Virus record (IMG/VR): IMGVR_UViG_3300006805_000151
Location: 1 to 24,706 of that record
Direction: 5' to 3' (one strand)
DNA from: a virus
DNA length: 24,706 nucleotides
Part shown: positions 3,286-18,891 of the stretch, one piece after another
Position numbering within the stretch: position 1 is the first letter of the stretch
Layout of the letters: the number at the start of each line of letters is the position of its first letter
Notes under the pieces: generated by a model
Database searches by the model: none
What the model saw: the letters and a program-made list of their open reading frames with translations, nothing else
Told to the model about the DNA's origin: nothing
Program-made: the position numbers and the translations under genes

Positions 3286-5224
3286 TTGCATCTCCTATCA
3301 TTGGGTTTTCTAGTTGGCCCTGCTTAGCACCAGCCTCAGCTGCCTGAGTTACCAAGTTGGTATCATGCATAGAGGATGGCTGGAAGCCATAGCCTTCTTC
3401 GATTTGTGCCTGAATATCAGGCGGGGCGTCCTTATAGGACATGTTAATAAACTCTTTTGGATCTGGTGGTTGCTCTGGTGGTACCTCAACATTATTATCC
3501 AATAACAACCTGTCGAAGTCTCTAACAGAGTAAAGCTCTGCCTTCTCACGAGATATCTCAACAAAATTAAACCGAGGTACATCTGCTGGCGTCTTAAACA
3601 CCGCAGCTTGTTGCATAGCTTGGTTCTGTAAGGCTATAAGTTCCTGAGTAAGCTGGGAGCTCATGTCACGCTTATCAGCTTTACTGAGCGGGATCATAGA
3701 GTCGTCATCAATGTCGAGCTCCATTTCGCCCTGGTAATCAGATGGCATGATAAGATCTGGTACAACTCTACCTTGGTCTACGCGCTTGATCTCTTCAGGG
3801 TCGTCAGCGAACTGTTGCAGATTAGAGAGCCATATGCTACCGACAGTCTTCATCGACTGCTTAAAGTTATCTCGGAAGAAACCTATCTTGGTTGTTGCTG
3901 CCTCGGTGATACGACGAACACCATATGCAGTACCTTGCGTTTTGTCATTCCCGTCGTTCGGAGTGCCAGCAGCGTAAGGAGAGAATGTCGCAGCGTCAAC
4001 ACCACGTTCGATAACACTCATGACAGCAGACAGCTGCGTTGGGTTGGGTTCTGGGAATTTAAATTGTTTTGGCTCAGTACCGGTAAAGGTGATCTCGCCG
4101 CCTGGCTCAATGATAAAGTCATTAGTCAATGTACCATCTTCGTACATAATCATAGACTCAATCGAGAGATTCCAGTTGTCTAAGTAGTGATTAAACAGAT
4201 CATTCGTGGCTGATTGGAGAGTACGGTTGTTCTCAAATAGTGACTCACCAAATACTGAGTAAGACTTCTTACGGAGGTAGAATGGTACTACCGGGTATTT
4301 GTCGTGCCAGTAAGGCATAGATGTAGGGCGTATTTCAACCCAGTTTGTGTCTTCTGGGGCGGTTGCATCAGCACGGCCTTCTGCGTAAGTAGTTAGTGTA
4401 ATGCCTTCAGCAGTTCGCTCATAACACTCATAATAGGTAATCATATCTAGGCTATCGTCAGGAGAAACAATCTCTGCTTCATTCGCGACCCTATCGCGTG
4501 ATACGTTCTGTGCCTCAAACTCGGTGTCGTATCGTAAGTCTGTTTGGCACTTATCAAGATCAACATATAAACCAGAGGACTCAAGATCACTCTTAGTTTC
4601 ACGGCCTCTAACAATAAGATATGGCATCTTTCCCCAGCGCTTAGCTTCAGCGGGGAAGACGTTGAAATAGTTTATGCCCTCGAATTCGTTATGGCCCTGC
4701 TTAGTGGTTTTCGCAACACGAGCAGTGTTGTCCATAGTACCAGTTTCGTCCCACTGCCGGGCATACGTTCTTTTCTCTTCAAACGCCCAGCTCGCATACG
4801 CGTAGCCAGTACCAGTCACAACTGCATCTACTAATGGGTCAAATACCTTGAGCTTCATTGGCTCGTCGTGTTGGCAAAGGTATTCTTTTTGGAGCTTAGC
4901 CTCTATACGTTTCTGCCGGCCGAGGGTAGTCTCAGGTATCTGGAAGTTACCAGTCTCGTCATCAAGCTCTACCTCTCCCTGTATAGCGACATTGAAAAAT
5001 GGCACGACATCAGACATTTGCGCGATGAGATCCCACGCCTTGCTCGCAAGAATAGGGAGATATACTTTAGATTTCCATGGTGAATACTTCTTAGTATTCT
5101 GTACGGCATACATGATGTCGTAATATTTACGAGCATTTTCAAACATTTGGCGTTGTTTGTTTTTACGATTCTCAAATCGCTGTTGCCAAACAGACGCGGA
5201 GGTCTTTTTAATTTCCTTGGACAT
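3239..5224 (-). CDS. Portal protein
   Basis: 661 residues. The portal is the dodecameric ring at one capsid vertex through which DNA is packaged and ejected. The sequence shows a basic N-terminus, an early helical segment with SPWKSKVYLPILASKAWDLI, a long central part with beta strands and a YECYERT segment, then VPFYLRKKSYSVFGESLFEN and TQGTAYGVRRITEAAT, both typical of P22/DUF-type portals, and a Gln/Gly/Ala-rich tail. Length is normal for this class. AAGGA lies upstream of the ATG, and a promoter begins about 80 bases further upstream. Terminase, portal, scaffold, capsid order supports the call. Confidence 0.85.
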   Translation of the reverse strand: MSKEIKKTSASVWQQRFENRKNKQRQMFENARKYYDIMYAVQNTKKYSPWKSKVYLPILASKAWDLIAQMSDVVPFFNVAIQGEVELDDETGNFQIPETTLGRQKRIEAKLQKEYLCQHDEPMKLKVFDPLVDAVVTGTGYAYASWAFEEKRTYARQWDETGTMDNTARVAKTTKQGHNEFEGINYFNVFPAEAKRWGKMPYLIVRGRETKSDLESSGLYVDLDKCQTDLRYDTEFEAQNVSRDRVANEAEIVSPDDSLDMITYYECYERTAEGITLTTYAEGRADATAPEDTNWVEIRPTSMPYWHDKYPVVPFYLRKKSYSVFGESLFENNRTLQSATNDLFNHYLDNWNLSIESMIMYEDGTLTNDFIIEPGGEITFTGTEPKQFKFPEPNPTQLSAVMSVIERGVDAATFSPYAAGTPNDGNDKTQGTAYGVRRITEAATTKIGFFRDNFKQSMKTVGSIWLSNLQQFADDPEEIKRVDQGRVVPDLIMPSDYQGEMELDIDDDSMIPLSKADKRDMSSQLTQELIALQNQAMQQAAVFKTPADVPRFNFVEISREKAELYSVRDFDRLLLDNNVEVPPEQPPDPKEFINMSYKDAPPDIQAQIEEGYGFQPSSMHDTNLVTQAAEAGAKQGQLENPMIGDASGTGQPGNNQAGATA

Positions 5225-5309: not shown

Positions 5310-5996
5310 CTATTGGTATCGTAAGTTAATAAGTTCGTTGTGAACACCGATCTCTTTTATCCTGTCAGCGCCTATTTCTTTGTAGATACTTGTAGCTTTT
5401 CTTACATTACCGAATTTGTTTTTCTTCTCATAATCTTCACGCTCAGTAGTATATAGCCTTATGTGGCATTTGTTTTGCTCATCGTCAGCTCCGTAGATAG
5501 GTGACTCAAAGCTTGGGGTAGACACTAGAACAGATCCACCGGGGGCTAGAACCTTGTCAATACCTTTTAAAACAGTCTGGACATCTTCCACGTGCTCGAT
5601 ACACTCAAAGAATGTTACAACATCGAACTTCTCGCCGGCTTTGGCAAAGTGCTCTAGCCATGACTCGATAGTGCCCTGATAGAATAGAGCTGGTAGGCCT
5701 AGTTTTCTGGCTCTCTCTCTTGCAATCTCAATACCGTCCTTCGTGAGGTCCACGCCAACCACTGAGACACCAAGTTGTGTGGCACAGGTGAGTAGAAAAG
5801 AACCATCCAGACAGCCGAGGTCAAGTACGCTTTTCGGAGCCAGTTCTTCGACTTGGTCGAATGCCCACCCGAAGCGCGGGATGAACTCGTTGACCTTTGT
5901 AAATATCTTCTCTGATATTGGTTCGAAGTGGTGGTGTTCATAGAATTCTTCGTACTCATATTTATCAAAATCTTTCTCTGTGTGCTTACCGATCAT
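5310..5996 (-). CDS. SAM-dependent methyltransferase (class I)
   Basis: 228 residues of a Rossmann-fold methyltransferase. Motif I is VLDLGCLDGSF (57-67), the acidic end of strand 2 is VVGVDL (79-84), the post-II motif is FFECIEHVED (129-138), and APGGSVLVSTPS (151-162) is the strand-5 region. This resembles the UbiE/Methyltransf_11/23 group, often found with glycosyltransferases where it methylates sugars or lipids. The start overlaps the preceding glycosyltransferase piece by 11 bases, so they are co-translated. The substrate is unknown. With its neighbours it may decorate virion glycans or host surface glycans. Confidence 0.8.
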   Translation of the reverse strand: MIGKHTEKDFDKYEYEEFYEHHHFEPISEKIFTKVNEFIPRFGWAFDQVEELAPKSVLDLGCLDGSFLLTCATQLGVSVVGVDLTKDGIEIARERARKLGLPALFYQGTIESWLEHFAKAGEKFDVVTFFECIEHVEDVQTVLKGIDKVLAPGGSVLVSTPSFESPIYGADDEQNKCHIRLYTTEREDYEKKNKFGNVRKATSIYKEIGADRIKEIGVHNELINLRYQ

Positions 5997-6549
5997 GGCT
6001 TTTAATCACCTCGTCCCACTGCTTAGCGACGTCTGACCAATCGGTATTCTCCACTGGCACGCCAGTCTTACCCTCTTTCAGGGCAGAAACTACAGCAGCT
6101 ATAAATTTTTCTTGTTTGTATTGGTCTGTATAAATCTTTTGTGTTTTGATAATATCACCGCATTGGACGGTCTCGTTGAGGGCGGCTACTCCGGTAACGA
6201 CTGGATAGCATCCAGCCTCCTGGGCTTTGAGCGCCGTAATGCAATGTATTTCTGGGAACTCAGTTGGATAGGCCCAGACTTGGATGGACCGCATAGCTTT
6301 TGCGAGCTCAACATGTGATACACGTCCGTGGACGGTAACTCCGCTGTCTTTAAGTTCTTCAAAGAGTGCTTCCATCCTGACGTAGAAATCATCTTCACCT
6401 TGGAGGGCAGTCCATGATTCCCACCCGTAATATACGTCAAGGGTAGCATCAGGTACTTGCTCCCTAATTTTCGGCCACATGCCGAGCAGACACTCAAGTC
6501 CTCTGTAATATGCGCTAAAATACCCAACACTATTCTTCCTCTTTTTCAT
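5986..6549 (-). CDS. C-terminal (donor-binding) half of a GT-B glycosyltransferase
   Basis: 187 residues matching only the back half of a family-4-type glycosyltransferase: it opens at SVGYFSAYYRGLECLLGMWP (the usual 'Y-S-S-DRGL-LL-WP' start of the second Rossmann domain), continues with PDATLDVYYGW, VTVHGRVSHVELAKAM, and PTEFPEIHCITALKAQEAG, the nucleotide-sugar region. The second Glu of the E-x7-E motif is Lys here (codon AAA), which could weaken catalysis. No acceptor domain is present. The missing half matches the end of the 563-residue protein at 8174-9865. AAGGA lies just before the ATG, which overlaps groEL by 20 bases. Confidence 0.78.
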   Translation of the reverse strand: MKKRKNSVGYFSAYYRGLECLLGMWPKIREQVPDATLDVYYGWESWTALQGEDDFYVRMEALFEELKDSGVTVHGRVSHVELAKAMRSIQVWAYPTEFPEIHCITALKAQEAGCYPVVTGVAALNETVQCGDIIKTQKIYTDQYKQEKFIAAVVSALKEGKTGVPVENTDWSDVAKQWDEVIKSHDR

Positions 6550-8092
6550 TATCCTTCTCCGTAGTTATTAGTACGCCAGTAGTCAGAGCTGATCCAGCCA
6601 CGGATACTGCATTTGTTACGGCCTGTTTGATTACCATTGCTGGGTCAATAATACCGTGTTCTTTTAAGTCAATAAGCTCTCCGCTGCCCATTACATCAAA
6701 ACCTTTACCAAATTCTGTCAACTGTTCTAGTCTTTCGCCCCAGCGTTCGCCAGCGTTAGACATGAGTACTTTAAAAGGTGCAAGTAAAGCCTCTTTTAAT
6801 AGTTCTGAGCCAGGGTCTGTGTCTGTAATTCTTCTAGCTAATTCAATGTATGTAGTAGCACCGCCAGGGACAATACCGTCTTTCATGGCTGCCTCTGTTG
6901 CTGCAACAGCATCATCTACGAGATATTTACGCTCTTCTGCTTCCATGTCTGTATTGCCACCTACACGGATTTGCCCGAGCTGGGCTCGGAGTTGAGCAAT
7001 ACGATGGACGATCTTACCTTTGTCAAACTTTGATTCTGCGGCATCAGCCTTAGCCTCTAGGTCTTTAACATAACTGTCAACCTTCTGCCCACCTGTGATA
7101 ATCGTTTCTTCTTGTGAGGAGACAATCTCTTCACATGTACCGAGATCTTCGAGTTTAGCTTCGTTGACCTTGCGGGGGAGCTTGTTGCCAAGCACGGTTG
7201 CGCCAGTTAAGGCTGCTAAGTCTTTTAACAACTCTATGCGATTATCACCAAAGCCAGGAGCTTTAATGCCGATTATCTCAAATTGGTTCGTCTGCGTTGA
7301 TAACAGTGCCTGATCTAGCAGATCATTTTTAAAGTCGTTACATATAATAACTATGCCATCTTTGCCAGAGTTGTAAAGCTCATCAAAGAGGCCGACTACA
7401 TCCCGGAGGCTTACTTCTTGATGTGCTAGGAGTATGGCTGGGTTCTTTACAGTGGTAGTCTGTGACCGAGAATCAGTAATCATTGAAGGGCTAATCACAC
7501 CTTTGTCGTATGTGTAACCTTCGCGGATCTCATATTCAGTCTCTGGCTTGGTGCCAATCTCTACCAACACCATACCATCTTTACCAAGCTTGTGGTACAT
7601 AGTACCGACCTCTTTACCAATATCTTTATTTTCACTAGATATGGTGGCAACTTCAATAGCCTGCTGTTTGGTCTTTACTGGCTCTGCTATATCTTTAAGG
7701 TACGTTAATACTTTTTCTGCTGCGTTGTCAAGTTCACGGCGGAGGACCATAGCGTTGTAGCCATTCTGAATCTTTGCCATCCCCTTATCCATCAAATGGT
7801 ACGCAAGGATAGTTGAGCTAGTCGTGCCGTCCCCAACATTATCATTTGTCTTGCTTGAACTAGACTTAATCATCTCAATACCCACTCTGGCGCCAGGAGA
7901 GGCGTCTAGGACGTCTTCAATGCTTTTTGCGACTGTGACCCCATCATGAGTTACAATCGGCTCACCGAACGCCTCTATGACAGCATTCTGCCCTTTCGGA
8001 CCGAGCGTTGTTGATACGGCTGTATACAAAAGCTTGGCACCTTCAAGTAGCTGTTCCTTTGCTTCTATGCCGGTTATGACTTGTTTCTTCAT
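6530..8092 (-). CDS. groEL: GroEL-type chaperonin
   Basis: 520 residues, nearly full length for a group I chaperonin (about 545 in Escherichia coli). GroEL folds proteins in an ATP-driven ring chamber. Visible features: TTLGPKGQNAVI (28-39), the ATP loop NVGDGTTSST (85-94) with Asp88 equal to E. coli Asp87, apical-domain GFGDNR (280-285), and VDDAVAATEAAMKDG (392-406) with Asp394 equal to Asp398. The usual third Gly of the GGG motif is Ala (PGGAT), and the Gly-Gly-Met tail is replaced by a short acidic end. No GroES-like gene occurs in this window. It overlaps the 36-codon gene upstream (ATGA) and the glycosyltransferase piece downstream. Phage chaperonins usually help fold capsid proteins. 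Confidence 0.95.
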   Translation of the reverse strand: MKKQVITGIEAKEQLLEGAKLLYTAVSTTLGPKGQNAVIEAFGEPIVTHDGVTVAKSIEDVLDASPGARVGIEMIKSSSSKTNDNVGDGTTSSTILAYHLMDKGMAKIQNGYNAMVLRRELDNAAEKVLTYLKDIAEPVKTKQQAIEVATISSENKDIGKEVGTMYHKLGKDGMVLVEIGTKPETEYEIREGYTYDKGVISPSMITDSRSQTTTVKNPAILLAHQEVSLRDVVGLFDELYNSGKDGIVIICNDFKNDLLDQALLSTQTNQFEIIGIKAPGFGDNRIELLKDLAALTGATVLGNKLPRKVNEAKLEDLGTCEEIVSSQEETIITGGQKVDSYVKDLEAKADAAESKFDKGKIVHRIAQLRAQLGQIRVGGNTDMEAEERKYLVDDAVAATEAAMKDGIVPGGATTYIELARRITDTDPGSELLKEALLAPFKVLMSNAGERWGERLEQLTEFGKGFDVMGSGELIDLKEHGIIDPAMVIKQAVTNAVSVAGSALTTGVLITTEKDNEKEEE

Positions 8093-8199
8093 ACTTTATC
8101 CCAGTCTCTTGTTGCAAGATTGAATTGATACAACTCACCGTCATCGCTGAGGCCGAGTATGCGGCCAGTGTTGTCACTGATTATCTGAATTATTTTCAT
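8089..8199 (-). CDS. 36-residue protein between glycosyltransferase and groEL
   Basis: A short frame encoding a protein that starts MKIIQIISDNTGRILGLSDD and ends ATRDWDKV. Support is strong for its size: AAGGAG lies seven bases before the ATG, the start overlaps the glycosyltransferase end by 26 bases in another frame, and its TGA overlaps the groEL ATG (ATGA), so groEL is translationally coupled to it. The sequence looks like a single two-stranded beta unit ('G-I-L-G-L-S-D-D-G-E-L-Y'), as in small phage proteins of unknown role. It travels with groEL in the gap between the two glycosyltransferase halves. Confidence 0.7.
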   Translation of the reverse strand: MKIIQIISDNTGRILGLSDDGELYQFNLATRDWDKV

Positions 8200-9865
8200 C
8201 GAACTGCTCCTTCTTGATTCCATTTCCTATTACCCGGGAATTCCGGTCATCCACGTTTTTGTATAAATCCCGGTGATAATTACTCTTAAACATATATGTC
8301 ACATCTGGATAGTTTTTGACCATGTCTTCAGGGAGAACATCGTGTATGTCAGCAAGCTTGACGTGGGCGTTTATCTTCTCAAGGTATTTCGGAGCGCGCC
8401 AGGAGATGAATATATTAAACTCATCACGGACGTCAATCTCCTTCCATGGACGATAATGTACCCAAGGTGGGGCATCTGCGTTAACCGGGTCTTCTTCGTA
8501 AGTCTCGCCATACACGGTTACGTCATACCCAAGTTTGGCCAGTTCTCTTGATAAGTAAACGACAGCTTCTTCTGACCCACCCATACCTTTATCAAGTGTT
8601 GATGGTCCCCATTCCTCGTAGCCTTGACCACAAAATATGACAATAGATTTCTCACCCCATGCTCTTGGCTGTGTCACCATTTGACGGAAGTTTAATATTC
8701 TTGTATCGTACTTTATATCATCGACGAGTGCGTTGAACAGTGCTTCATCTCGTATAAAGAATTTACGAATCTTAGGGAGCAGATTCACAAAGTTCTCTGC
8801 TTCTGCTTCGTTCTTAAAGTCAGAAAGTAACTCTTGGGCCTGAGGGTTTGTTGGTATTTTCAAAAGCCACTTAAGAGCGTCATTATAGTTACCAAGGCTA
8901 AAGTCAGCTTGCGCACCTATTAAACATGCACGTTCGCGGCTTGATGGATCATATACTGATAATGTTTGTGGGTCGGGCTTTGTCTCAGATACGTGTATCC
9001 ACTCCAGTGCCTCTTCCCAGTTCTTTTGGTCTGCCTCGTATTGGGCAAGTAGCCAATACGCCATGGGGTATTCTGGCTTTAATGTCATGCATTTTGTAGC
9101 GTATTCAAGAGCAAGATCATGCTTCCCAAGGTGGTAGGCACACTCACTAATAACAGCAAGGGCTCGGTAAGAATCTTCAATTGATCCGCCCACTTTTAAA
9201 TAATCACTTAGCAACTCCGCGGCCTGGTTATAATTGCCGAGGCTAAATTCTGACATGCCCAAGTAGTGGAGATACCGGGGGTCTTCAGTAGCTTTGTATG
9301 CCTCTTTAAGTATCTCGTGGTTACGAACAATAGCTTCTTGCGTATGTTCAAAACTTGTGTTGTGCTTAACCTCTAGGTCAACTCTGCCACTTACATACTT
9401 GTCGTCTTTAATAAGTGTCTCATGTACCCATCCGCGCCACTCAAACCCAGCAGCCCTACGGATTAGTCGTTCACGCCAGTGGCGAGTTACACAGTTGCCG
9501 CGCTCATCTTGAGCGTAGTTATATGGCAAAAACACAGCATCTAGTTCGTTGTCTACTGCGTACTGAACGAGCTTAGGTATCTCCTCAAATGGGAATGTGT
9601 CATCTGCATCTATCCAAAAGAAATAGTCAGTGGTACACATCTCAAGATTAGCGTTACGGGCGTCATCAAAACGATTGTTCCACTCACGGTACGCTATATT
9701 GATGTGCTCGTCTGGCCACGCCTTTTTTAACTTGTTGGCAGTTGGTTTATCAGAAACAGTTAGGTTTATCTGGTCAAAATAAACAGCCTGTCTGAGAATG
9801 TCTGTAACCTGCTCATACTCATCCTTAACGATCATCTGTAGTGCTACAGTTGGTCCATCTTTCAT
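8174..9865 (-). CDS. GT2 glycosyltransferase fused to TPRs and the N-terminal half of a GT-B enzyme
   Basis: 563 residues in three parts. Residues 5-170 are a GT-A (family 2) domain with MIVKDE at the start, the DxD-type DADD (86-89), and HWRERLIRRAAGFEWRGWVHE. Residues about 190-350 hold tetratricopeptide-like helices (PRYLHYLGMSEFSLGNYNQA, MAYWLLAQYEADQKNWEEAL). Residues about 405-563 are the first Rossmann domain of a GT-B enzyme (SIVIFCGQGYEEWGPSTL, GMGGSEEAVVYLSRELAKLG, VIGNGIKKEQF), where the protein stops at the interdomain linker. The missing second domain resembles the protein at 5986-6549. GGAG precedes the ATG. A role in glycosylating virion or host surface is likely; substrate unknown. 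Confidence 0.85.
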   Translation of the reverse strand: MKDGPTVALQMIVKDEYEQVTDILRQAVYFDQINLTVSDKPTANKLKKAWPDEHINIAYREWNNRFDDARNANLEMCTTDYFFWIDADDTFPFEEIPKLVQYAVDNELDAVFLPYNYAQDERGNCVTRHWRERLIRRAAGFEWRGWVHETLIKDDKYVSGRVDLEVKHNTSFEHTQEAIVRNHEILKEAYKATEDPRYLHYLGMSEFSLGNYNQAAELLSDYLKVGGSIEDSYRALAVISECAYHLGKHDLALEYATKCMTLKPEYPMAYWLLAQYEADQKNWEEALEWIHVSETKPDPQTLSVYDPSSRERACLIGAQADFSLGNYNDALKWLLKIPTNPQAQELLSDFKNEAEAENFVNLLPKIRKFFIRDEALFNALVDDIKYDTRILNFRQMVTQPRAWGEKSIVIFCGQGYEEWGPSTLDKGMGGSEEAVVYLSRELAKLGYDVTVYGETYEEDPVNADAPPWVHYRPWKEIDVRDEFNIFISWRAPKYLEKINAHVKLADIHDVLPEDMVKNYPDVTYMFKSNYHRDLYKNVDDRNSRVIGNGIKKEQFDENNSDNQ

Positions 9866-9875
9866 ATTATCTCCG

Positions 9876-10157
9876 TTATAATTCTCTTTGTTTTCTTGCT
9901 TCGTTAACTGTGCGATTTATTATCTTAAGCGATCTGTGAAATTTCTTCAGATCACCGCTTGCTTTGCCGAACCGCCATAACTGTTCTAGCTCATGTACTT
10001 CTTGGGTGTCTACAAAGTAAAGAACTTCACGCTTGTAATCGTTCGGATCTTGCCTTGTGCCCACTACATTGAAACCGTTAAGGTGTAGGAACGCTGCAAA
10101 CGGAGTATCGCTTGTACGATAAGGCTCAATTAACTGGTCTTCCTGTGTCGGGGTCAT
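9876..10157 (-). CDS. DUF5659-like small protein
   Basis: 93 residues. The centre reads TPFAAFLHLNGFNVVGTRQD, then REVLYFVDTQEVHELEQLW, then a Lys-rich helix FHRSLKIINRTVNEARK. This matches the plan of DUF5659-type phage proteins: a short alpha/beta fold with a 'DxxLAAyLlanGf' style start and a C-terminal helix reaching DNA or a partner. The gene overlaps the end of the terminase gene by 32 bases. Function unknown; packaging-associated from position. Confidence 0.7.
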   Translation of the reverse strand: MTPTQEDQLIEPYRTSDTPFAAFLHLNGFNVVGTRQDPNDYKREVLYFVDTQEVHELEQLWRFGKASGDLKKFHRSLKIINRTVNEARKQREL

Positions 10158-12407: not shown

Positions 12408-12481
12408 TGGCTTCGAGGGTAGGACTCGAACCTACATTGCAAGGGTCAAAACCTTGTGGCCTACCTTTAGCCGACCTCGAA
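12408..12481 (-). tRNA. tRNA-Gln (anticodon UUG)
   Basis: A 74-base cloverleaf on the minus strand. Acceptor TTCGAGG pairs with CCTCGAA, D arm GGCT/GGCC, anticodon stem CAAGG/CCTTG with loop TTTTGAC (anticodon TTG), T arm GTAGG-TTCGAGT-CCTAC, discriminator G and encoded CCA. It is the last tRNA of the Pro-Asn-Gln run. Confidence 0.92.
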
Positions 12482-12484
12482 ATA

Positions 12485-12560
12485 TGGCTCCAGAGCTGGG
12501 GTACGATCCCAGAACCTTCCGATTAACAGTCGGATGCTCTACCAGTTGAGCTACTCTGAA
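12485..12560 (-). tRNA. tRNA-Asn (anticodon GUU)
   Basis: A 76-base cloverleaf. Acceptor TTCAGAG/CTCTGGA, D stem GCTC/GAGC, anticodon stem TCCGA/TCGGA with loop CTGTTAA (anticodon GTT), T stem CTGGG/CCCAG, discriminator G and encoded CCA. The T loop is ATCGTAC rather than TTCGANY: positions 54 and 58 are A and T instead of T and A, a swap of the usual reverse-Hoogsteen pair. It lies three bases upstream of tRNA-Gln, so both are processed from one transcript. Confidence 0.92.
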
Positions 12561-12563
12561 ATA

Positions 12564-12637
12564 TGGTCAAGGTACGTAGAATCGGACTACGGATTGAGGT
12601 ATCCAAGACCCCCGTGTTACCACTACACTATACCTAG
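12564..12637 (-). tRNA. tRNA-Pro (anticodon UGG)
   Basis: A 74-base cloverleaf. Acceptor CTAGGTA pairs with TACCTTG with a T-T mismatch at the second pair, D stem GTGT/ACAC, anticodon stem GGGGT/ACCTC with loop CTTGGAT (anticodon TGG), T arm CGTAG-TCCGATT-CTACG, discriminator A, encoded CCA. The T-run of the upstream terminator ends a few bases before its 5' end, so this tRNA group is probably made by read-through. Confidence 0.88.
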
Positions 12638-14972: not shown

Positions 14973-17021
14973 ATGGCAGACTCAAAAATTTCAGCACTCT
15001 CCCAAGCAACACCTGCTTCTGGTGATATGATCCCAGGTGTAAAGTCTGGTGCTAACAAGAAGTTTGATGTTGGTGAGATGCCAGTATCAACAAGCCAACA
15101 AACGGCCATTGATACATCATCTACTCCCCGGCTTACTGGTGGTATTTCTTACAGACAAACCGGCCTTTCTAATTGGTTTACTGCATTACTCGCAGCAACT
15201 TCAGCAGCTCCTATTGATGTAGTTGTTGTAGGTGATTCAATAAATGCTCTTGGTTCAATCTATGTACCACCTCCTCCTGGTGGGTTTGAACAACTGCTTA
15301 ACCAACAACTTGGCGTTAGCGAGACAATCAACGTACCAATCGGCGTTTATGGTCAAGCAGATTATTCTCCTACAGCAACCACAACACAGGGTTCCGTAAC
15401 ATCAACAGCTCTTGGTGGCTTTGGATCATCTCTCTCTAATGGTCAGGTATTAACTCATGTGGCTACCTGTACTGGTGTTAAAATAGCATATCGCACAGAT
15501 CCTTCATACGGCACATTAACTGTCCGCGATGGCGCTGGTGGTAGTGTGCTTGGCACGATAAACTGTGCTGCAACTGCAAAATCAGGTAACATTGCCACAT
15601 ATACTGGCCTTTCAAACGGTTCCCACACCATCCACATTACCTCATCGGGTAATACGGTTGTTGAAATCGTTAAACCAACTTATGGTCATAAAGTTCACAT
15701 TTGGAACTGTTCACATTCTGGGTATAAATCAGCTGACTATACAAGTAATACGTACCTCGCTCTTGACCTTATCGACACGCTTGAAACAGCTGGTACACTA
15801 AAATTAGTTATCATCGCCACCGGGGCGAACGATAATGGTGGTTCTGGCTATGCCACCGATATTCCTGCCTTGATCTCAGCAGTTGCCGCACATACTTCAG
15901 CAGACAAAGCGCTATGGTTCCCTTATATATCAGGAGCTTTGCCATTATCTGAATATACTGCCGCCCGCACAGCAGCATATGGTACCGGATTACCAGTCAT
16001 CGACTCTTCAACTGTCGCAGCCACGTCATATGGCTTAGACGGTACTCACCCAGACGCGTGGCAAAAAAGAATGCTTGCCATTCAACAAACAGCTGTGCTT
16101 GGTGGTGATCCAATAGGTGTACTTATCCGGCAAATCCAAGATCCAGATAGACCAGGTGGTCTCAGGATTACCTCTCCTACAGGTACTGGTACTGAATTTG
16201 GCTATGTTAGTGCTTTACTTTCAATATTTGCTGACATGCCGGGACCAGGCTGGGCTTCTGGCGATGGTACAACAGCGTTCGGGGACACAACATTCGCACG
16301 TAAATCAGCTGCAAAATGGTCACTTAACAACGGTAAAGGTACTCTTGAAGGCAACCTTGGGCCAGCAATCAACGCTCAAACAGGTACTTCGTACACACTG
16401 GCGCTCTCAGACGCTGGTAAGATGATAACACGCTCTAATGCAGGTGCTTCTACCCAAGATCTCCCCTCAAACGCTACAGCAGCAATCCCTATAGGGACAA
16501 TGATCCACATACTCAATATTGGCGCTGGTGCTGTAACCGTTCAAGCTGGATCGGGGGCAACACTAACTGGTGCAAACACTGTTCTACAGCAAGATGAGCG
16601 AGCAATGGTCGTGAAAACATCTACAAACGGCTGGCAAATAACCGCTCCTTCTCCTCTAACAGCAACATCAACTACAACCTTGACAAATAAAAGGGTTACT
16701 CCACGCGTTGGATCAACAGCGTCCAGTGCTACTCCAACAATCAACACAGATAATGTTGATGCATACTCTATAACCGCCCTCGCAGCTGATATAACATCCA
16801 TGACAACCAACTTATCTGGTACTCCGACGAATGCTCAAAAACTTATAATTAGAATAAAAGACGACGGCACCGCTCGTGCAATTACATGGGGATCAGGGTT
16901 TGAAGCTAAGGGCGTTGCCCTCCCAACAACTACCGTTATCTCTAAAGTATTGACAGTAGGATTTATATATGACACTGTAACCTCAAAATGGGGTTGTGTA
17001 GCATCAGCTCAGGAGGCATAA
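14973..17021 (+). CDS. Tail fibre with SGNH/GDSL hydrolase domain
   Basis: 682 residues. The N-terminus (ADSKISALSQATPASGDM) is a phage fibre attachment-type start. From about 80 it is an SGNH hydrolase: block I VVVVGDSIN with nucleophile Ser89, block II Gly near 250, block III TGAND with Asn286, block V DGTH with Asp356 and His359. A beta-rich insert of about 100 residues (130-235) resembling a carbohydrate-binding module lies between blocks I and II. The C-terminal third is repetitive Thr/Ser/Ala-rich fibre, ending with IRIKDDGTARAITWGSGF, known from other fibres. It probably deacylates or cleaves surface polysaccharide during host recognition. Confidence 0.85.
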   Translation: MADSKISALSQATPASGDMIPGVKSGANKKFDVGEMPVSTSQQTAIDTSSTPRLTGGISYRQTGLSNWFTALLAATSAAPIDVVVVGDSINALGSIYVPPPPGGFEQLLNQQLGVSETINVPIGVYGQADYSPTATTTQGSVTSTALGGFGSSLSNGQVLTHVATCTGVKIAYRTDPSYGTLTVRDGAGGSVLGTINCAATAKSGNIATYTGLSNGSHTIHITSSGNTVVEIVKPTYGHKVHIWNCSHSGYKSADYTSNTYLALDLIDTLETAGTLKLVIIATGANDNGGSGYATDIPALISAVAAHTSADKALWFPYISGALPLSEYTAARTAAYGTGLPVIDSSTVAATSYGLDGTHPDAWQKRMLAIQQTAVLGGDPIGVLIRQIQDPDRPGGLRITSPTGTGTEFGYVSALLSIFADMPGPGWASGDGTTAFGDTTFARKSAAKWSLNNGKGTLEGNLGPAINAQTGTSYTLALSDAGKMITRSNAGASTQDLPSNATAAIPIGTMIHILNIGAGAVTVQAGSGATLTGANTVLQQDERAMVVKTSTNGWQITAPSPLTATSTTTLTNKRVTPRVGSTASSATPTINTDNVDAYSITALAADITSMTTNLSGTPTNAQKLIIRIKDDGTARAITWGSGFEAKGVALPTTTVISKVLTVGFIYDTVTSKWGCVASAQEA

Positions 17022-17164
17022 TGATTTACCAATTAGAGTGTCCAAATTGCCTGGCTATTAACGAAATAGAGTCAGAAGAAGCAGTTATACAGTGGAGTTG
17101 CGATAGTTGCAACGCCCGCCCACTTAGCTCTCTTCCCACCGACGAAGAAGGGAATCTTATCTAA
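17021..17164 (+). CDS. 47-residue zinc-ribbon peptide
   Basis: Starts MIYQLECPNCLAINEIES and has two Cys-x2-Cys knuckles (CPNC, CDSC) 20 residues apart, a classic zinc-ribbon layout. AGGAGG lies four bases before the ATG. Its start overlaps the fibre stop (TAATG) and its stop overlaps the next start the same way, so all three genes are co-translated. Its role between two fibre genes is unknown. Confidence 0.82.
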   Translation: MIYQLECPNCLAINEIESEEAVIQWSCDSCNARPLSSLPTDEEGNLI

Positions 17165-18891
17165 TGGCTACTCTCTATATGGCTCCCGGTGGTGGTAATT
17201 GGAACGGTGCTAACTGGGCCACAACTTCAGGTGGCACAGCAACAACTACGCCCACCGCTGCCGACGACTGCATACTCGACGCTAACTCTGGTAACGTGAC
17301 GGTTAACTCCGGCTCAGTATGCCGTAGTTGGACGGTGAATGGCTACACTGGCACAGTCACACACACCGCGGCAGTAAATATAGCAATCGGTGACGCAACA
17401 GCCGGCGCAGGCAATAAAGCCCTCGATTTTGCTACTACTGGGTGGACATACACGCTCGGCAACGCAACTACCTCGTCATTCACGTTTGTATCGACTTCCG
17501 GTACACAGCAGACCGTTAATTTCAATGGGAAAACCCCCGGCAACGTGACTTTCCAAGGTATAGGCGGTTCTTTTATTCTGGGTAGTGCCCTCAATGCTCC
17601 ATCAATTACGTTGGTTATAACGCAGTGCGCGTTTGATAGTAGCAACTATAATATTGATGTCGGAACGTGGAACTCATCGGGCGCCTCTGTGCGCTCTATA
17701 ACGCTTGGCACCTCAACAGTGACTGTTTGGGCGGCGAGTGGTACACCATTCACTCAGAACACAACAACAAACCTTACTTTTAGTGGGGCAAATGCTACAT
17801 TTGTTATCGCTTCGGTAGGCACAAGTGACAGGACTTTTGCTGGAGGAGGACTAACATACGGGACATTAACATATGATGTAGCTAATTCACCTGGTAGACT
17901 CATTGTTACAGGAGCTAACACCTTCACTACCACAAACTTTGGCAGCGGCAGACCTATCCGTTTACCGGCCTCAACAACTAATACCACAAGCAACTTTAAT
18001 GCCACTGGGGTTAACAATACTGCCAGTAATGGCTTTGTATACAGTGGTGGTGGGTATGCGGCATCTATCCCAGACTCAGCAGCAACATCCATTGCTGGGG
18101 ATATGGACATCCGCTTGCGAGTGGCAATTGATGATTGGGCCCAAACAGGGGCACAGCGTCTTTGTGCTAAATACGGAACGGCCACTAATAGGTCGTGGCG
18201 ACTCTATCATATCGCAGGTGTACTTACGTTTGACCTCTCAACCGATGGAACCAACAGTTCTGCCGGGACAGCAAGCGTGAATGTTTCAACAATTCCTCTT
18301 AATAGCGGAACAACATATTGGATAAGGGTAACTCGTGAAAAGTCCACAGGGAATATTAAATTCTATTATGCAGCTGACTCTACTACAATGCCCTCAAGTT
18401 GGACACAGATTGGTACTACACGTACCGCTAGCACCTCAGATATATATGACTCAGCAACTATTAACACAATCGGGGGGGAATCGACAGGCACAAACTCAGC
18501 AACGGGTAAATACTACTGGTACCAAGTACGAAACAACATTCTAGACGACGGCACAGGTATCCAGATAGACGCTAAATTCGCTGACAAAACATGGGGTTCT
18601 GATAGCTGGACTGAATCATCAAGCAACGCAGCAACTGTGACGTTGAACGCAGGAGCTGTGTACGGCGATGGTAGAATATATGTCGAATCAAGCTCGGCAG
18701 GATCGGCAGCAACATTGAGTAAATCATCAGGTACAGTATCATGTGACTACCTAGTCTTAAAGGATTCCGCCGCATCAGGTGGTGCGTCGTGGTATGCAGG
18801 GGCAAACTCAATTAGTGTATCAGGGAACTCAGGCTGGGTATTCACCGCCCCGCCCTCTACAAGCCCCGCTGCCTTCTTTGCATTATTCTAA
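17164..18891 (+). CDS. Tail fibre/receptor-binding protein with lectin-like domain
   Basis: 575 residues starting MATLYMAPGGGNWNGANW. Residues 1-300 are Thr/Gly/Asn/Ser-rich with repeated short beta strands, suggesting a beta-solenoid or repetitive fibre. Residues about 310-470 (MDIRLRVAIDDWAQTGAQRL, SWRLYHIAGVLTFDLSTDGT, YWIRVTREKSTGNIKFYYA) look like a concanavalin A/LamG-type jelly-roll that binds sugars. A short beta-rich C-terminus ends the protein, with a plain hydrophobic tail (AAFFALF). Translation depends partly on coupling. The host receptor is unknown. Confidence 0.75.
   Translation: MATLYMAPGGGNWNGANWATTSGGTATTTPTAADDCILDANSGNVTVNSGSVCRSWTVNGYTGTVTHTAAVNIAIGDATAGAGNKALDFATTGWTYTLGNATTSSFTFVSTSGTQQTVNFNGKTPGNVTFQGIGGSFILGSALNAPSITLVITQCAFDSSNYNIDVGTWNSSGASVRSITLGTSTVTVWAASGTPFTQNTTTNLTFSGANATFVIASVGTSDRTFAGGGLTYGTLTYDVANSPGRLIVTGANTFTTTNFGSGRPIRLPASTTNTTSNFNATGVNNTASNGFVYSGGGYAASIPDSAATSIAGDMDIRLRVAIDDWAQTGAQRLCAKYGTATNRSWRLYHIAGVLTFDLSTDGTNSSAGTASVNVSTIPLNSGTTYWIRVTREKSTGNIKFYYAADSTTMPSSWTQIGTTRTASTSDIYDSATINTIGGESTGTNSATGKYYWYQVRNNILDDGTGIQIDAKFADKTWGSDSWTESSSNAATVTLNAGAVYGDGRIYVESSSAGSAATLSKSSGTVSCDYLVLKDSAASGGASWYAGANSISVSGNSGWVFTAPPSTSPAAFFALF

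Follow-up and report, generated by a model that had tools for sequence, protein, structure and literature searches.

A phage glycosyltransferase gene in pieces: groEL and other genes at a repeatedly split interdomain hinge

On the minus strand of the window, the whole 24,706-nt stretch of viral DNA analyzed here (IMG/VR record IMGVR_UViG_3300006805_000151), groEL and a 36-codon gene lie between two reading frames that look like the front and the rear of one glycosyltransferase. The locus thus raises the question of whether these frames are the halves of a single gene, what separated them, and whether GroEL takes part in joining their products. Related loci, designated by L numbers, supply most of the answer.

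Gene layout and the unbroken homologues

The minus strand carries, in this order, terminase, a 93-aa ORF, a 563-aa protein, a 36-aa ORF, GroEL, a 187-aa protein, a methyltransferase, and an SU10-like portal. The features of the locus are listed with their coordinates, strand, and the evidence for each.

8174..9865, minus strand: N-half, 563 aa (ORF, Pfam, alignment to fused homologues, AlphaFold2 model of the fused L013)
8207..8212, minus strand: AAGGAG in the N-half codons for KKEQ, a putative Shine–Dalgarno sequence of the ATG at 8199 (sequence)
8089..8199, minus strand: 36-aa gene, the first of the inserted cassette (ORF, relatives)
6530..8092, minus strand: groEL, encoding a 520-aa group I chaperonin, cargo in the hinge (Pfam Cpn60 1.6e-45, PHROG groEL 5e-110, alignment of nine, PDB sequence matches)
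5986..6549, minus strand: C-half, 187 aa, the second GT-B Rossmann (nucleotide-sugar) domain (ORF, Pfam, alignment, AlphaFold2)
5310..5996, minus strand: SAM-dependent methyltransferase, the next gene in the same operon (Pfam)

The four reading frames from N-half to C-half and the short overlaps that join the genes, both described in the earlier note, are confirmed on the minus strand; the overlaps amount to 26 nt between the N-half and the 36-aa gene, 4 nt between the latter and groEL, 20 nt between groEL and the C-half, and 11 nt between the C-half and the methyltransferase gene. The N-half is composed of a GT2 domain (SunS/ThuS-like), TPR repeats, and the first GT-B Rossmann domain, which are recognized in Pfam as Glycos_transf_2, TPR, and Glyco_transf_4 (the last over profile positions 1–71 of 170 only), and it stops 8 codons past NGIKKEQF. 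The KKEQ codons read AAGAAGGAGCAG, and the AAGGAG sits just before the next ATG (8199); judging by this spacing, the end of the N-half may double as the ribosome-binding site for the insert. AAGGA(G) is retained in most loci of the groEL clade and is missing from the fused L013. For the 36-aa gene, an alternative 44-aa start exists at 8223, and the relatives favor the 36-aa start. Related ORFs are found at the same place in L005/L006, L010, L011, and L012; the gene has no Pfam, PHROG, or HNH match.

GroEL is full length (PHROG groEL positions 3–538 of 540) and has no GGM tail, and the GDGTT at 87–91 and Asp394 of its ATP site are invariant in nine loci. Of 279 phage GroEL records, the others listed share about 29–34% identity with it, and that of MW202497 shares 64%. 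The C-half belongs to the Pfam families Glyco_trans_1_4/Glycos_transf_1. A GGSE loop is present in the N-half, and an invariant Trp pair, W171 and W178, in the C-terminal helix of the C-half. An intron or intein as the interruption of the window gene is rejected: Rfam gives three tRNAs only and no intron RNA in the window, and none of the four window proteins has a Hint/intein profile in Pfam. An assembly accident does not explain the arrangement, since the same gene order with groEL in the middle also occurs in MW202497 and in nine IMG/VR contigs.

The earlier note had taken the 563-aa and 187-aa ORFs for the halves of one gene and had suggested a search for an unbroken homologue without groEL. 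Such homologues, in which the halves are fused at the same locus, were found in related phages (L013/L014, L015, L025, L026/L027, L032, and L036/L037). Herein, a single frame of about 735–761 codons spans both halves and is followed by the methyltransferase, as in the window; the 93-aa ORF precedes the fused gene except in L036, where the contig end cuts, and the portal is present where the contig reaches. The gene is also unbroken in the more distant phages L003, L016, L017, and L021, and likewise in cyanobacterial homologues of about 366 aa. In the alignment, the fused form reads through the junction as ...IIGNGIVREQFEHPKPDPNHKVGYFSAYYRG...; the split form ends at ...VIGNGIKKEQF... with a stop, after which the C-half restarts at MKKRKNSVGYFSAYYRG. 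The general pattern is NGIxxxQF-linker-VGYFSAYYRG for the fused form, and NGIKKEQF with a stop and M..NSVGYFSAYYRG for the split form. The proposed end points (VIGNGIKKEQF and SVGYFSAYYRG) are shown by this alignment with unbroken homologues to be the interdomain hinge.

The fused L013 and the lone C-half of the window were modeled. For L013, the AlphaFold2 model has a mean pLDDT of 94.5 and a pTM of 0.81. Residues 412–753 align over about 300 residues with the single-chain GT4 enzymes MshA (Z 29.8), PimA (Z 27.8), and BshA (Z about 27). GT4 enzymes are thus its best structural matches; MurG types do not occur among the matches listed, which does not count against them. A Foldseek search with the whole model gives SunS/ThuS (7msn, 7msk) as best matches; by domain type, these would relate to the GT2 domain and the helical region. 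The break maps in this model to the loop between helix 561–564 and strand 574–577. The C-half modeled alone (AlphaFold2 pLDDT 94.1) aligns only with second domains (PimA 179–364 and MshA 205–406), and its profile has no match among PDB sequences. Neither of the refuting results named in the earlier note was obtained. The C-half folds alone as a domain, yet its matches are confined to the second halves of GT-B enzymes; as modeled, it is a whole domain and half an enzyme. Nor do the halves appear as independent families, no orphan half being found from either side; the C-halves have an N-half upstream. N-half and C-half are hence one gene in pieces, because relatives have the unbroken gene at this locus and the modeled GT-B interdomain loop is the place of the break.

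The GT-B fold (GT4-like clan) is assigned from two Rossmann-like domains and the Glyco_transf_4 and Glycos_transf_1 profiles; that the N- and C-domains reside on separate chains follows from Pfam, alignment, and the C-half model. The C-domain lacks the canonical EX7E: the window has EIHCITALK, in which the first Glu is kept and the second is Lys. This Lys is also present in the fused L013, L015, and L003, and Glu is found in L016, L017, and L021. The Lys is not a consequence of the split, since fused members of the clade share it. Because it replaces the second Glu in this clade, fused relatives included, enzyme activity is uncertain, and the protein is therefore assigned a GT4-like fold rather than classed as a canonical retaining GT4.

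Recurrent splits and variable cargo at the hinge

A wider search yielded 141 distinct loci with the C-domain, 97 of them fused and 44 split at the hinge. The split N-halves terminate at NGI plus a short tail, and in most split loci the next gene begins at an overlapping ATG (TTATGA, ATGA, or TAATG). A tree of 139 loci requires at least five changes between the fused and split states, each forced by well supported branches, although such changes cannot by themselves separate splits from re-fusions. groEL is present in all ten members of one clade, which is nested among fused relatives; a careful tree of 30 rows also places this clade among fused rows and rejects a single shared split for the two nearest split clades (AU p 3.6e-6). 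As to direction, the linker argues for splitting, because the ancestral type survives in fused neighbors (KVKRDPHK in L015 resembles KVERNPHK in the outgroup L016) and not in the split forms. Two loci were not counted as hinge splits: L043, a near copy of the fused L042, is apparently split elsewhere, probably by a frameshift, and the divergent L071 also seems split elsewhere.

The genes between the halves differ widely. The groEL clade carries groEL with or without small ORFs; in L007, groEL is the only gene between the halves, and the junction is TAATG. Other loci contain an N4/N6 DNA methyltransferase (L029 and L038), another DNA methyltransferase (phrog_799, L191), SAM methyltransferases (free in L062, fused ahead of the C-half in L151 and L168), small ORFs (L028, L031, L033, L034, and L059), or HNH endonucleases (L158, L166, L175, L188, and L213), and others are split without cargo (L040, L060, L075, L128, L130, and L203). 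Fusion of a methyltransferase to the C-half is seen not only in L151 and L168 but also, as C-terminal extensions, in L073 and L047. In 14 records from relatives whose gene is fused or otherwise split, the search gave no chaperonin. A shared origin of the 36-aa gene and the 50–56-aa hinge ORF of L028–L035 is unsupported, as they have no profile similarity. Apart from its hinge cargo, L213 has an intein elsewhere in its C-half.

Five of the 19 HNH matches in the 1.4 Mb of these loci lie at the hinge. Partial copies of neighboring gene sequence accompany three of them: in L188, an orphan C-half start (MKNLKLFYGSSYDR) precedes the HNH gene; L213 has a shorter orphan C-half start, MRQHKIFWG; and in L175, the N-half tail recurs as a diverged second copy at the end of the HNH ORF. 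These partial duplicates may be traces of homing or recombination. In L190, two ORFs occupy a 611-bp gap and begin at the same ATG position; its sister is the cargo-free L203, followed by the cargo-free L128 and L130. In L190/L203, the split thus preceded the cargo, since the cargo-loaded locus is sister to a cargo-free one. One hinge in this glycosyltransferase family is a site that has been split repeatedly and loaded with differing genes.

Cause of the split, cooperation of the halves, and the place of groEL

The core of the earlier note, one gene in pieces, stands; its proposed cause, the entry of groEL, is unsupported in that form, groEL being one cargo at a repeatedly split hinge. That groEL and the small gene broke the glycosyltransferase by direct insertion, without a prior split or endonuclease step, is somewhat unlikely. 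It would fit that all ten groEL loci form one clade, inside which we know of no groEL-free split, and that L007 has groEL alone between the halves. However, splits at this hinge also occur in several clades that lack groEL there, in some of them without any cargo, and in the L190/L203 pair the cargo arrived after the split. An insertion scar was not found either: the search for repeats or scars at the groEL junctions, suggested earlier, gave, for nine of the ten loci, no direct repeats beyond those expected from shuffled sequence (the exception, L005, has a 10-nt direct repeat against a shuffled maximum of 9) and no informative repeats within 5900–9900, and no homing endonuclease gene (HEG) or scar remains at the junctions of the groEL clade. 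A second alternative places the split in the ancestor of the groEL phages and L028–L040, with the fused L013, L025, L015, L026, L032, and L037 arising by re-fusion. Re-fusion is documented in Alg14/Alg13-type GT-B pairs (PMC8993221), phages recombine, so that a fused allele could be re-acquired, and similar-looking small ORFs lie at the hinge in both split clades. We regard this history as clearly improbable: the small ORFs have no profile similarity, the best tree would require two separate fused clades, and fused neighbors bear the ancestral-type linker. For splitting in the groEL clade, HNH homing endonucleases are, by analogy with the HNH-bearing relatives, the best candidate agent.

The halves have stayed together under purifying selection. 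A C-domain partner is found in 35 of 36 N-half loci, and the remaining one stops at the contig edge. N-half, GroEL, and C-half are under purifying selection, with pS about 0.7–0.9 and pN 0.14–0.23, which are quoted instead of dN/dS because synonymous sites are mostly saturated. Motifs of both GT-B domains are retained about equally often in split and fused forms, and across the split loci the identities of the N and C parts are correlated (r 0.89). GroEL distances follow those of the N-half (r 0.81) but hardly those of the C-half (r 0.21), which could reflect exchange of the C-half. A two-chain enzyme formed from N-half and C-half is likely but unproven; it is supported by selection, kept motifs, correlated divergence, and the pairing of the halves. 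It is quite improbable that they no longer cooperate, with the GT2 domain alone accounting for the action of the N-half, and the C-half either decaying or in a new role. The GT2 and TPR part does resemble the complete enzymes SunS/ThuS, and the C-half folds alone, but motifs are retained in both the first GT-B domain and the C-half, which are under purifying selection, no locus with one half only was found, and within the groEL clade the C-half exceeds the other two genes in conservation, with a mean identity of 0.75.

GroEL itself was suggested to help the halves assemble, for which we found nothing in support. Its position between the halves, the translational coupling, and its presence in every member of the clade could be read as a functional tie to the glycosyltransferase, with GroEL required for assembling the two chains. 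This is very improbable: the hinge carries unrelated cargo elsewhere, and a specific role in assembly is unlikely because the other split clades manage without a chaperonin, none being present in their searched records. In addition, a search of eight groEL-clade records, several of them 42–44 kb long but possibly incomplete, gave no Cpn10 (GroES). Host GroES could be the partner of the phage GroEL, and the placement of groEL would give it expression with the late operon.

The preferred reading is thus a GT2-TPR-GT-B phage glycosyltransferase that was, with high probability, cut at the hinge into two coupled genes, between which groEL and the small gene settled. Herein, the cut at the loop between the two GT-B Rossmann domains would have produced two translationally coupled genes, whose chains may reassemble into one GT-B enzyme, as in other split GT-B pairs and HEG-split phage enzymes. 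The hinge would act as a recurrent landing site, as both domains stay intact when a stop/start junction is placed there, and any ORF with a coupled start and stop could thus be inserted or exchanged. HNH homing endonucleases, present at the exact site in five relatives, would be one driver. Most likely, groEL is a passenger: its product would have a separate role, in which it folds proteins of the phage or the host together with host GroES, and the gene would use the late operon for its expression. For the family as a whole, the hinge is probably a recurrent fission-and-cargo site, where independent splits at the same codons give a translationally coupled junction, HEGs and accessory genes (groEL, DNA and SAM methyltransferases) are loaded or exchanged, and the enzyme continues to work as two chains.

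Comparison with known systems and implications

In its N-terminal part, the window enzyme shares the GT2 and helical-repeat arrangement of the SunS/ThuS glycocin S-glycosyltransferases, and SPbeta yolJ is a distant sequence match. To our knowledge, SunS/ThuS have no attached GT-B pair and are not split.

Known genes-in-pieces include Aeh1 nrdA split by mobE, T4 topoisomerase gene 60/39 split by mobA, and gene 43A/43B of Aeromonas phages 25 and 44RR; HEG-split phage enzymes retain activity, and an HEG may also invade a gene that is already split (PMC2988022). As in these systems, the gene is continuous in relatives and cut by inserted DNA into adjacent coding regions that are both kept, stop/start overlaps couple translation, and relatives of the window bear HNH HEGs at the hinge. 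Unlike them, the window insert is groEL and the 36-aa gene instead of a homing endonuclease, and the cut coincides exactly with a domain hinge, one that was split several times and holds varied cargo. GT-B Rossmann domains on separate chains, as in the window, are known from Alg13/Alg14 and EpsE/EpsF, where the active site lies between them (PMC8993221). These pairs are MurG-related (GT1/GT28), whereas the window enzyme matches GT4 by structure, has an additional GT2-TPR part, is viral and repeatedly split, and has unrelated genes between its halves. In HEG islands, nuclease genes lie at the boundaries of phage genetic exchange (PMC10448857). The family of the window is similar in having HNH genes at a junction whose neighboring cargo varies between relatives, but this junction is inside what relatives have as a single gene. 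Like other phage-encoded GroELs, the window protein is a group I chaperonin in a tailed phage genome; unlike them, its gene is located inside a split enzyme gene, in genomes of ~42–44 kb, and GroES was not found (eight records). Our literature search gave no earlier report of split phage glycosyltransferases or of groEL with a glycosyltransferase in these phages.

The usual view of gene fission is that of an infrequent accident or of damage inflicted by a single homing endonuclease. In this enzyme family, one hinge is cut repeatedly, and fused, cargo-free split, and cargo-loaded forms coexist in related phages. These natural before-and-after pairs make it a system for how genes break at domain borders, how phages gain accessory genes such as groEL without harming the neighbors, and how a two-domain enzyme tolerates conversion to two chains, with the fused L013 and the split window pair being ready constructs for a direct biochemical comparison.

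Intein and homing endonuclease genes in related loci

Among related phages carrying the same glycosyltransferase, split or fused, the C-half (second GT-B domain) of locus L213 (4950-6389) is interrupted by an intein (PF14890, E 1.1e-23), which also has HNH_3. The insertion point is the Cys of EINC(ITA), a conserved motif. This locus additionally holds an HNH gene at the hinge, the linker between the two GT-B domains. In L175, the NUMOD3/HNH ORF (4320-5030) ends in a diverged second copy of the N-half tail, WHRDNVSKLPEEKVFITSNGL, which is a recoded duplicate adjoining the homing endonuclease.

Small ORFs at the hinge and neighboring genes

At the hinge in the window (8199-8089, minus strand), L005, L010, L011, and L012, there are very short ORFs that look like one blade of a propeller (YGLGxDGxLYYWN...W). 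The hinge of L028-L035, a groEL-free clade, holds a 50-56-aa ORF of similar appearance, for which kinship is not demonstrable. Directly ahead of groEL, L002 (5353-5643) and L009 carry an ORF with an HExxH motif; that of L002 matches phrog_1233, a PHROG of unknown function (E 1.8e-12).

In L047, L050, L073, L151, and L168, methyltransferases share one reading frame with either the C-half or the entire glycosyltransferase, and the free methyltransferase of the window (5310-5996) represents the same theme. Further features of the window are:
12411-12637, minus strand, three tandem tRNA genes
14973-17021, plus strand, long ORF (682 aa)
17164-18891, plus strand, long ORF (575 aa)
Neither long ORF has a match in Pfam.

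Divergence of GroEL and the two halves

Across nine loci of the groEL clade, GroEL divergence correlates with that of the N-half (r 0.81), as opposed to r 0.21 for the C-half. From this contrast, the C-half may have been swapped between phages.
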